Part shown: piece after piece, positions 4,573 to 7,745 of the stretch | How the letters are laid out: the number at the start of each line of letters is the position of its first letter | Position numbering within the stretch: position 1 is the first letter of the stretch | NCBI GenBank assembly: GCA_009781125.1 | Contig: WQYS01000080.1 | Coordinates: 1-8,978, forward strand | Length of the DNA: 8,978 nucleotides | Reading direction: 5' to 3' | Source of the DNA: Acidobacteriaceae bacterium | GTDB taxonomy: Bacteria; Acidobacteriota; Terriglobia; Terriglobales; Acidobacteriaceae | Notes under the pieces: generated by a model | Databases searched by the model: none | Told to the model about the DNA's origin: nothing | Seen by the model: only the letters and a program-made list of their open reading frames with translations | Translations under genes and position numbers: made by a program

Positions 4573-5181
4573 TTATGTCAGATCGTCGGTATCAAATGCC
4601 GGACGCTTGCGCCCCAGCGCTGAAATATCCCTTGCTCCGCTTACAAGCCCTTCGACCACCTGATCGATCTCGGCCTCGGCCTCGGCGGTCATCTTCGCCG
4701 CGGGATCGGCGATCTTCAGGCTCTCCAGCAGAACCGTGGCATGAGCAACGGCTACATGATCCTGATTCAGGCCCTCCGGCGTCTTCGCCTTGATCCCGAC
4801 CTCGCCCGGCTTGATGCCAAGCAGCGCCGCCACCGACTCGCGCAGCTCGCCGGCGATGGGAACGATCTTCGGCTGTGCCAGGATCAGCACCGTATCTACG
4901 TTGACGATCTTGTATCCGGCGGTCATGACCTCTTCGAGCGCGGTCTCAAGAAAGATGTGCGAGGCCGCTCCCTTCCAACGCGGATCGCTGGGCGGAAAGA
5001 AGGTTCCGATGTCGCCCGCCGACACGGCTCCTAAAAGCGCGTCCGTGATGGCATGAAGCAGCACGTCGCCGTCCGAGTGACCCGCCAAGCCTTCGGGATG
5101 CTCGATCTTCAGGCCGCCGATGACCAAAGCCACGCCGGGCTTGAAGGAATGCGAATCAAAGCCGTAACCAATCCTCATCAT
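4573..5181 (-). CDS. ispF: 2-C-methyl-D-erythritol 2,4-cyclodiphosphate synthase
   Basis: IspF cyclises CDP-ME 2-phosphate to MEcPP with release of CMP, in the cytoplasmic MEP isoprenoid pathway. The start GYGFDSH and the block HSDGDVLLHAITDALLGA are diagnostic. By alignment to E. coli Asp8/His10/His42, the metal ligands here are Asp9, His11 and His43. IGTFFPPSDPRWKGA and NVDTVLILAQPKIVP are also typical. Two points are unusual. The usual TTTEKLGFTGRGEG-type nucleotide-binding segment is replaced by the shorter KTPEGLNQDHVAVAHA. The protein also continues about 42 residues past the normal end near 160, with an acidic EAEAEIDQ stretch and a tail ending KRPAFDTDDLT. Two consecutive ATGs exist (5181 and 5178); MRIG from 5178 matches the family start, and only a weak GAG-type ribosome site lies upstream. 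It sits downstream of ispD with a palindromic repeat between them. Confidence 0.95.
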   Translation of the reverse strand: MMRIGYGFDSHSFKPGVALVIGGLKIEHPEGLAGHSDGDVLLHAITDALLGAVSAGDIGTFFPPSDPRWKGAASHIFLETALEEVMTAGYKIVNVDTVLILAQPKIVPIAGELRESVAALLGIKPGEVGIKAKTPEGLNQDHVAVAHATVLLESLKIADPAAKMTAEAEAEIDQVVEGLVSGARDISALGRKRPAFDTDDLT

Positions 5182-5210
5182 GGAATCATCTCGTTTATAA
5201 GTGTTAATCC

Positions 5211-5315
5211 GGGTGCCCCATTCATGACACAGTTTTATCGTGTCATGGGTGGGGTCTTCTCACCACAAACATTTCCCCCACCCATGACGATAAAACTGTC
5301 ATGAGTGGGGCACCC
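5211..5315. repeat. REP/BIME-like pair of inverted palindromic units between ispD and ispF
   Basis: Unit A is 5211-5254 (44 nt) and unit B is 5276-5315 (40 nt, inverted), with a 21-nt spacer. Both units start, in their own orientation, with GGGTG followed by a hairpin. In A, 5216-5230 pairs with 5240-5254 around the loop AGTTTTATC. In B, 5276-5288 pairs with 5298-5310 around the same loop inverted. After alignment the units differ by one substitution plus a 2-nt loss on each side of the stem, so pairing is kept (CATGACAC/GTGTCATG against CATGAC/GTCATG). Together the units also form one large cruciform or transcript hairpin. Unit B ends 1 nt from the ispD stop codon. The layout matches known BIME-type elements (two inverted REPs). 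It may affect ispF expression or mRNA stability. Confidence 0.85.
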
Positions 5316-5316
5316 G

Positions 5317-6033
5317 CTATGCCTTCGCCCGCGCAAGGTAATACTCAGCCAGCTCGATGTCTCCCGGCTGTGTAATCTTGAAGTTGCGCGGCGAACCCTG
5401 CACCACCGTCACCTCAATGCCGGCGCGCTCCAGCAGACTGGCCTCATCGGTCCCGGCAAACTCGTCCGCCTCGGCCTCGCGGAAAGCTCTTCGCATCAGC
5501 CCGGCCCGCGCTCCCTGCGGAGTCTGCGCCAGAACGATGCGCTCGCGCGGAATCGTCGATGTAACGATCGCTCCCCCGGCGGTGCGGTCCACCTGCTTGA
5601 TGGTGTCCACGGCGGGCACTCCGACAATCGCCGCTCCGTGCCTGGCTACGGCGTCGATGGTCCGCTCAATGGTCGCCGTGTCGATCAGCGGACGCACGGC
5701 GTCGTGCACCAGCACCAGATCGTCGTCGTCGCAGTCGAGCGCGGCCACGGCGTTGCTGACCGACTGCTGGCGATGGTCTCCGCCTACAACGACGCGCACG
5801 CGAGAGCCTAGCTTGTACTCGGCAATCTGCGCTTCGACGCGCTCGCGCTCAGCGGCGCGCACGGCTACGCAGACCGCGTCCACGCGCTTGACCGCCAGAA
5901 ACGCCTGCAACGACCGGATCAGGACCGGAACCCCGCCGATCTCCATAAACTGCTTGGGCGCAACATGAGCCGCGCCGCCTGCGGCCATCCTGGTGCCGAT
6001 GCCCGCCGCCGGAAGAATTACAAAAACTCGCAT
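5317..6033 (-). CDS. ispD: 2-C-methyl-D-erythritol 4-phosphate cytidylyltransferase
   Basis: IspD transfers CMP from CTP to MEP, giving CDP-ME; it is the third step of the cytoplasmic MEP pathway. The 238-residue length matches the family (E. coli 236). The visible motifs are PAAGIGTRM (8-16), PKQF (26-29, Lys27), GGDHRQQSVSNAV (84-96), VHDAVRP (109-115), Thr144 in VDTIK, Arg163 eight residues before TPQ (171-173), TDEASLLE (195-202) and NFKIT (217-221, Lys219, matching E. coli Lys213). All catalytic and nucleotide-binding positions appear intact. ATG 6033 gives the usual N-terminus; AGGTG just upstream is a modest ribosome site. The gene diverges from tilS and precedes ispF by 135 nt. It is flanked on both sides by palindromic repeats, the downstream one starting 1 nt after its TAG stop. 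Confidence 0.97.
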   Translation of the reverse strand: MRVFVILPAAGIGTRMAAGGAAHVAPKQFMEIGGVPVLIRSLQAFLAVKRVDAVCVAVRAAERERVEAQIAEYKLGSRVRVVVGGDHRQQSVSNAVAALDCDDDDLVLVHDAVRPLIDTATIERTIDAVARHGAAIVGVPAVDTIKQVDRTAGGAIVTSTIPRERIVLAQTPQGARAGLMRRAFREAEADEFAGTDEASLLERAGIEVTVVQGSPRNFKITQPGDIELAEYYLARAKA

Positions 6034-6059: not shown

Positions 6060-6082
6060 ATCACTTTTGAATTATCACTTTT
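6060..6082. repeat. Direct repeat ATCACTTTT x2 upstream of ispD
   Basis: ATCACTTTT occurs at 6060-6068 and 6074-6082 on the plus strand (AAAAGTGAT on the ispD strand), with a 14-nt period, 27-49 nt upstream of the ispD ATG. The position suits an operator or upstream promoter element. A GATAAT hexamer (-10-like) overlaps the second copy on the ispD strand, but I find no matching -35. The regulator is unknown and chance is possible in this AT-rich stretch. Confidence 0.35.
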
Positions 6083-6085
6083 TGT

Positions 6086-6176
6086 TTGTCATCCCGCAGG
6101 GATTTGCTTTTGCTCTTTGCGCCGCACAATGTCTCGAGTAACTCCAGACAAAAAGCAGATTCCTGCGGAATGACAA
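6086..6176. repeat. Second REP-like inverted pair in the ispD/tilS divergent gap
   Basis: Arms 6086-6111 and 6151-6176 are inverted copies, 23 of 26 positions identical, separated by 39 nt. Each arm holds a small hairpin: ATCCC-GCA-GGGAT (6091-6103) in the left arm and ATTCC-TGC-GGAAT (6159-6171) in the right. Two of the three differences are the two sides of one stem base pair, so pairing is preserved. In common orientation both arms read TTGTCATYCCGCAGG and then on to TGCTTTT. The pair occupies more than half of the divergent gap and ends 26 nt before the tilS start. It is unrelated in sequence to the 5211-5315 repeat. Confidence 0.75.
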
Positions 6177-6180
6177 CGAA

Positions 6181-7340: not shown

Positions 7341-7745
7341 ATGGGCGCTACGATGACATTCAACAGTCTCAGAGCCGTCAAAATACTTGAACATGCCGGT
7401 GTCGCGCGCAACCAGGCGGAAGCATTCGCTGAAATTGTGTCGAATGCCGCCGATACGCCGGACATATCCGATCTGGCTACCAAGGCTGATCTTGAACAGT
7501 TACGGTTGGCCACCAAGGCTGATCTTGAACAATTGCGCAAAGATATGGATACCAGTTTTGAACAATTGCGCAAAGATGTGGATACCAGTTTTGAACTGGT
7601 GCGCAAAGATATGGATACCGGCTTTGAGCTAGTGCGCAAAGATTTCAGAGCAGACATGGCAGCTAATACGGTCAGACTCATCCTTGCCGTAATAGCCGTT
7701 TCTGGTGTCATGAACAGTATCCTTTTCTTCCTGCTTCGACACTAA
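7341..7745 (+). CDS. DUF1640/CCDC90-like membrane-anchored coiled-coil protein
   Basis: The product is 134 residues. The N-terminal MTFNSLRAVKILEHAGVARNQAEAF, the following DLATKADLEQLR, a charged coiled coil and a single C-terminal membrane segment (about 110-132, VRLILAVIAVSGVMNSILFF) match the layout of bacterial DUF1640 (CCDC90-like) proteins. The coiled coil consists of five 11-residue units at 45-99, which suggests a hendecad rather than heptad packing. With no signal peptide and one tail anchor, the coiled coil probably faces the cytoplasm. Hand counting gives about 48% GC, against about 65% in a sampled stretch of neighbouring tilS, so the gene may have been acquired or be fast evolving. 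It sits between tilS and ftsH, 71 nt and 130 nt away. Its function is unknown; an FtsH-related role is only a guess from position. Confidence 0.8.
   Translation: MGATMTFNSLRAVKILEHAGVARNQAEAFAEIVSNAADTPDISDLATKADLEQLRLATKADLEQLRKDMDTSFEQLRKDVDTSFELVRKDMDTGFELVRKDFRADMAANTVRLILAVIAVSGVMNSILFFLLRH
7473..7637 (+). repeat. Five tandem 33-bp units coding 11-residue coiled-coil repeats
   Basis: The units encode LATKADLEQLR (twice), KDMDTSFEQLR, KDVDTSFELVR and KDMDTGFELVR; a degenerate KDFRADM follows. The last three units are close at DNA level (GCGCAAAGATATGGATACC and variants). In-frame gain or loss of a unit would change rod length by one hendecad without breaking the frame, so length polymorphism between strains is expected. 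Confidence 0.85.

Follow-up and report, generated by a model that had tools for sequence, protein, structure and literature searches.

A REPIN-like doublet of GGGTG hairpins between ispD and ispF in an acidobacterium and its probable association with RAYT transposases

Main finding

The window analyzed here is the whole of a stretch of 8,978 nucleotides from an Acidobacteriaceae bacterium, and it holds between ispD and ispF a 105-bp element composed of two inverted hairpins. This element is very probably a REPIN-like, RAYT-associated, non-autonomous doublet inserted between the two genes. Because it is arranged like the termini of a RAYT gene with the gene removed, a non-autonomous miniature element is the most likely description. 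In relatives of the host, we find the hairpins in high copy number and at intergenic sites, with covarying stems and in facing doublets, as well as RAYT genes whose facing flanks carry the same leader. The reading of the element as a RAYT-associated REP doublet is well supported by these relatives. It represents a variant form of an established element type, with a non-canonical foot.

Two hairpins that differ by a matched stem change

Unit A (positions 5211 to 5254, + strand, 44 nt) consists of a GGGTG leader followed by CCCCATTCATGACAC, the loop AGTTTTATC, and GTGTCATGGGTGGGG, which form a 15-pair stem that includes two T-G pairs. Unit B (5276 to 5315, − strand, 40 nt) is inverted relative to A and is made up of GGGTG, CCCCACTCATGAC, the same loop, and GTCATGGGTGGGG, with 13 pairs of which one is T-G. 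The two are separated by a 21-nt spacer (5255 to 5275), a layout similar to that of four doublets of 99 to 105 bp in the relative G133, and the outer arms of the doublet form an inverted repeat (I4) of 20 nt at 95%. The inner stem of unit A, CATGACAC/GTGTCATG, and that of unit B, CATGAC/GTCATG, differ by two bases in each arm with no mismatch in either. The first-pass annotation had described an inverted pair of hairpins with one GGGTG leader and one 9-nt loop, an inner stem that passes from 8 to 6 bp with pairing intact, and wobbles that are T·G on the GGGTG-first strand; the letters of 5211 to 5315 bear out all of this. It had also proposed that unit B lost two bases on each side. The matched two-base difference stands, but its direction does not, as a loss in B and a gain in A can be read equally well.

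When folded as single-stranded DNA, the GGGTG-first strands reach −12.7 kcal/mol for unit A (z −5.34) and −12.3 kcal/mol for unit B (z −6.25), values that none of 200 shuffles equaled; the complementary strands reach −11.5 and −10.2 kcal/mol, respectively. The complete 105-nt doublet folds at −41.2 kcal/mol (z −10.85) and its other strand at −40.7 kcal/mol with DNA parameters. R1, a covariance model that we built from 14 hairpin units, scores unit A at 48.6 bits (E 3.2e-9) and unit B, itself one of the 14 sequences in the model, at 61.3 bits (E 3.7e-12).

Position within a compact gene pair

The element lies in a 135-bp spacer within a same-strand gene pair. Upstream is ispD (5317 to 6033, − strand, PF01128), with its stop codon a single base away from unit B, and downstream is ispF (4573 to 5181, − strand, PF02542, YgbB). 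The closest relatives of the window's IspD are acidobacterial, with identities up to 82%. We compared 21 acidobacterial loci, in 16 of which ispF follows ispD in the same direction; the other five are not comparable. In nine of the 16, the genes overlap or are at most 5 bp apart, and in the other seven a spacer of 20 to 565 bp is present without a GGGTG element there, these lengths resting on ispF starts extrapolated from alignment. The leader motif is absent from the ispD-ispF spacer of all 16 comparable loci. Given that ispD and ispF nearly touch in nine of these 16 loci and that none has the leader motif between them, the doublet appears to have been added to a compact gene pair, although such spacers can hold other sequence too.

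Two further repeats were observed in the window. A second, different REP-like inverted pair lies between the divergent ispD and tilS genes (6081 to 6114 on the + strand and 6148 to 6180 on the − strand); its members carry GTCATCCCGCAGGGAT and GTCATTCCGCAGGAAT, respectively, and in their short stems, too, the differences are compensated. A repeat of similar type, GTCATTCC..GGAATCTGC, is frequent within the 400 kb studied of the relative G145. At 7492 to 7643, a 33-bp repeat runs in frame inside a short gene for a coiled-coil protein, which scores 33.3 bits against PF07798 (cut-off 33.5).

A dispersed and mostly intergenic repeat in relatives

All 11 relatives searched with R1 contain matches at E ≤ 0.01, from 15 to at least 150 copies in each, with no more than 150 candidates scored per genome; these genomes are not a random sample, as ten had earlier pattern matches and G010 was included for being a named genome. 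Across the phylum, 25 of 297 genomes have matches at E ≤ 1e-5 under stricter filters, with 22 candidates scored per genome. None of 23 control genomes (22 from other phyla and one titled only "uncultured bacterium") has a match at E ≤ 0.003. A strict hairpin pattern found two matches in 21 relatives, in two genomes only, and a looser pattern detected copies in 13 of the 150 genomes sampled from G005's family, where the reversed control pattern had no match; the covariance model recovered far more. The plasmid collection yielded no match.

We counted intergenic units in 400 kb of each of two relatives after merging matches to both strands of one palindrome (134 to 129 in G145, 88 to 86 in G052), with genes called by a custom codon-usage script. 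Intergenic positions hold 115 of the 129 units in G145, compared with 17.5% of random sites, and 67 of the 86 in G052, compared with 16.6%. The many copies and intergenic bias that the first-pass annotation had named as support for its reading are thus present in relatives of the window's host.

Two-unit elements recur in the same stretches, and most face as the window's do: doublets with leaders out outnumber those with leaders in by 23 to 2 in G145 and by 13 to 2 in G052 (400 kb each), a predominance in favor of the first-pass reading. Most doublets listed from relatives have units of unequal length, as in the window. The four short G133 doublets share its size, leader, layout, and CATGAC stem type; a fifth, of 148 bp, has another stem. 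The 13 G052 doublets have a median of 105 bp and the window's size and layout, whereas those of G145 are longer, with a median of 144 bp. In near-identical 200-kb segments of G249 and G315, 11 of 12 R1 sites are at shared positions and the twelfth is inside a ragged indel of about 230 bp; this one comparison revealed no clean insertion with defined ends.

Stem covariation and the strand that is read

To keep pairing out of the selection, units were gathered by leader and loop only, which gave 134 units, 130 of them unique; part of the sequence searched had been chosen through R1 matches. Arm positions are paired in 93.8% of cases in the unique units, compared with a mean of 79.9% and a maximum of 82.3% in 200 shuffled sets, and stem columns 6, 7, 8, 10, and 11 vary on both arms. 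The arms, which range from 10 to 15 nt, are of equal length in 104 of the 130 units, as judged from the position of the closing [GA][TC]GGG. A T·G pair occupies column 5 in 70 of the 86 units having 12-nt arms. The 9-nt loop motif is carried by 163 of 224 units found with the model and lacking in 61, and 132 of the 163 have equal arms. The stem changes in relatives are therefore compensated, in length as well as in sequence, as had been supposed from the two window units.

The first-pass annotation had further suggested selection on a folded single strand. This is supported by the wobbles: on the GGGTG-first strand of 98 unique equal-arm units, G-T pairs number 109 and A-C pairs 17, a count somewhat biased in that the units were found with a model of that strand. 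Because the two units of a doublet show their GGGTG-first strand on opposite DNA strands, a single transcript cannot serve both. This would favor single-stranded DNA as the form that is read. The matched stem changes, including those of length, would be accounted for if selection acts on how the folded strand is recognized.

RAYT genes with flanking hairpins

Matches to the Y1 transposase domain (PF01797) are found in nine of the 11 copy-bearing genomes, 43 in total. None was detected in G052, which has 143 hairpin copies, or in G005, and the best match in G082 has an internal stop. We scanned 30 of the 43 loci for flanking hairpins at a cut-off of E ≤ 0.5. Six (L118, L126, L127, L129, L133, and L135) have facing hairpins on both sides of the gene and the other 24 do not; L121, L128, and L138 have hairpins in one direction only. 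Each flank of the six carries a GGGTG[CG]CCCA-type leader with a stem of its own, both copies at L129 being altered; the L129 gene is not one full open reading frame.

Proteins from five of the six flanked loci were tested, and all five exceed the cut-off of NF047646, the family of REP-associated tyrosine transposases, as well as that of PF01797. Against NF033573 (IS200/IS605), they score 30.8 to 43 bits, below the cut-off of 55. The HUH and Y.H.NP motifs are conserved in all five, with MP[ED]H[VI]HLL and Y[IM]H.NPV as common forms, and the L126 protein matches the Escherichia coli TnpAREP structure 4ER8 (E 7e-11). One hairpin of this locus (L126, 1884 to 1922) is 94.9% identical to unit B of the window over 39 nt. 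A RAYT gene flanked by the repeat, the association that had been predicted, therefore exists in relatives.

A RAYT would presumably recognize and bind the GGGTG-first hairpin in single-stranded DNA form, after which its HUH/Y1 active site would cleave beside the hairpin and insert it elsewhere. Mobilization of the hairpin by a RAYT is what the flanked genes suggest, and the window's host would presumably carry a cognate enzyme. These loci define an acidobacterial REP family whose foot is not GTAG, whose leader is shared, and whose stem differs from RAYT to RAYT. Since the stems differ and the leader is common, the parts that a RAYT reads (leader, loop, and stem) can be tested by swapping.

Relation to known repeat systems

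The doublet resembles REPINs, pairs of inverted REP units whose movement is attributed to RAYTs (Bertels and Rainey 2011, PMC3116915). It shares with REP and REPIN elements a conserved 5′ leader followed by a variable self-complementary stem and, in the relatives, many dispersed, mostly extragenic copies and a RAYT gene flanked by the repeat. It differs from REPINs in its GGGTG leader, its acidobacterial host, the unequal stems of the window units, and the polarity of lone copies in some genomes. The flanked proteins are similar to TnpAREP class 2 in their HUH motif, Y---NP signature, and flanking hairpins whose 5′ foot is conserved (Quentin et al. 2018, PMC6006769; NF047646; 4ER8). The foot of that class is GT[AG]G (PMC6006769), however, and in both window units the bases directly 5′ of the palindrome are GGTG, not the GTAG or GTGG of a canonical REP. 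The RAYT flanks in relatives likewise have a GGGTG-type leader in place of GTAG/GTGG. We therefore regard the repeat as a variant and not as a canonical GTAG REP.

Repeat-flanked IS200-like tyrosine transposases have been described in Terriglobus saanensis, K. versatilis, A. capsulatum, and G. mallensis (Di Nocera et al. 2013, PMC3733652). Among these TIRYTs and TIRtrons, the ORF1552 repeat is a repeated family, and the same source reports that most GTAG and CGTC families favor REP heterodimers over homodimers (PMC3733652). Like the flanked Y1 loci here, TIRYTs and TIRtrons are acidobacterial tyrosine transposases with flanking repeats (PMC3733652). The TIR consensus given in the text of that paper, GGGGWSAS, is absent from units A and B; read by eye, GGGG[AT][CG]A[CG] occurs on neither strand of either unit. 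The flanked loci also resemble IS200/IS605 elements in having a Y1 transposase domain and hairpins at both gene ends. They are set apart by the scores of the five proteins below the NF033573 cut-off and by hairpins that far outnumber the Y1 genes, and the window doublet itself encloses no gene, hence no above-cut-off transposase between hairpins.

The first-pass annotation had allowed that the family might be undescribed for this lineage. By title or passage, no paper found in searches of the open-licence literature describes this hairpin, and a search of that literature for GTGCCCCAT with GGGTGGG returned only papers unrelated by title. RAYT-like genes with terminal repeats, in contrast, were already reported in Acidobacteria (PMC3733652), so the family can be called undescribed only within the scope of the open-licence papers searched.

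Orientation of lone copies around the replication origin

In some Acidobacteriaceae, lone hairpins change direction at the replication origin. For these counts, members of inverted pairs (opposite strand within 150 to 200 bp) were left out and origins were set from parB, the G145 parB having strongly matched in each genome of two sets (11 and 6); G145 and G052 were examined over 400 kb around the origin and five other genomes over whole chromosomes or the main contig. On contig C6 of G145, unpaired copies are on the + strand to the left of about 83.7 kb and on the − strand to the right, with 74 of 79 in agreement (58 of 63 if copies within 150 bp of one another are treated as one). The GC skew changes sign at this point, and rsmG, parA, and parB, named from their translations, lie at 83 to 87 kb. 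The polarity was first noticed in G145 and in G010 (Terriglobus roseus DSM 18391), whose whole chromosome gives 72 of 103 in agreement (48 of 65 clusters within 3 kb), and G052, G249, G133, G143, and G366 were tested afterwards. Agreement is 47 of 61 in G052 (40 of 54 clusters, p 5e-4), where the switch falls near parB at 401 to 402 kb and a few + copies lie to the right of parB, and 47 of 58 in G249 (clusters 34 of 44). No significant polarity appears in G133 (30 of 59), G143 (33 of 81, three of 86 rows having been left out by hand), or G366 (16 of 25, with the length rounded to 4.02 Mb). The switch is thus seen in four of seven genomes, two of them among the five tested after it was noticed, and a universal rule is rejected by the other three. 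The lone copies of G366 switch direction in blocks at odds with the parB-based origin, for which a rearrangement or a wrong origin is possible.

Gene direction does not suffice to explain the polarity in G145 and G052, as agreement extends across most gene contexts. After omission of copies with no usable neighbor gene (6 in G145, 12 in G052), agreement in G145 is 23/23 beside lagging co-directional genes, 13/14 beside leading co-directional, 20/22 beside convergent, and 10/11 beside divergent genes; the corresponding values in G052 are 17/18, 9/12, 6/10, and 7/7. Two other hairpin repeats of G145 share the switch point near parA/parB, one with 12 + and no − copies to its left and no + and 8 − to its right, the other with 20 + and 2 − to the left and 4 + and 26 − to the right. 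Some of these copies adjoin GGGTG units and so are not independent of them; in G052, both repeats have too few copies to show a direction.

The sense of the polarity places the GGGTG-first strand on the leading-strand template, and so on the nascent lagging strand. We tentatively propose, as a possibility somewhat short of even, that in some Acidobacteriaceae the replication fork sets how lone RAYT-type hairpins are oriented, with a flip at the origin, and that the two other G145 repeats obey the same rule. If so, single-strand hairpin elements spread, or are retained, via one particular fork strand, and the genomes would be a natural record of the fork strand that such elements use. By our own strand bookkeeping, the sense would be opposite to that of a leader-first strand inserting into the lagging-strand template, as IS608 does (PMC6006769). 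T. roseus DSM 18391 offers a named strain in which to ask the question.

In the spirit of this polarity, tandem REP arrays of Pseudomonas fluorescens SBW25 run forward at about 2 Mbp and in reverse at about 4 Mbp (PMC3116915). The RepRanger authors describe E. coli REPs as lacking clear clustering or periodicity on either strand (PMC12306157). Beyond the SBW25 arrays, no replichore polarity of REPs was found by title or passage in the open-licence literature. What a specialist would not anticipate is the origin-switching orientation in the genomes that have it, a pattern that calls for many complete chromosomes.

Alternative explanations

The element could instead be a non-mobile RNA structure of the ispD-ispF transcript, whose fold tunes the stability or translation of both genes. 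Its location inside a same-strand gene pair and its strong folding on both strands fit such a role, and functions in termination and mRNA stabilization have been hypothesized for REPs (PMC3733652). The hairpin family is dispersed, however, with differing neighbors, and lone copies keep a replication-related direction whichever way the adjacent genes run and hence no fixed direction with respect to transcription. Nor can a single transcript present the T-G strand of both units. In 4900 to 5600, no Rfam family attains its gathering score; matches of three microRNA families to the doublet fall far short of theirs and reflect only a long hairpin. We consider this explanation very unlikely.

KOPS and chi are cases of polar DNA motifs recruited by the host, and the hairpin could likewise be a non-mobile motif whose orientation is selected relative to replication. 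Unpaired copies that flip at the origin in G145, G052, G010, and G249, across most gene contexts of the first two, would suit such a motif, as would the crowding of 97 of the 129 G145 units into the first 180 kb, around the origin. We nonetheless judge it very improbable: polarity is not significant in G133, G143, or G366, stems vary both among genomes and inside single ones, and Y1 genes bear the same kind of hairpin. That two other G145 repeats share the polarity points to insertion or retention of elements rather than to one recognized motif.

A bidirectional intrinsic terminator or attenuator, which strong hairpins between genes might bring to mind, has next to no likelihood, given that ispD and ispF are co-directional, that a leader and often a loop are conserved across genomes beyond the stem alone, and that a scan of 5000 to 5500 for a hairpin followed by a T run found no site; a promoter reading of the doublet region also found nothing.

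The RAYT-associated doublet thus remains our preferred reading of the window element. Among the lone copies of its relatives, a number in G143, G052, and G145 are followed by a second small palindrome of the ATTCGCGC-NNN-GCGCGAA type or by ATGAATCCC, so that lone copies may be longer, asymmetric elements.
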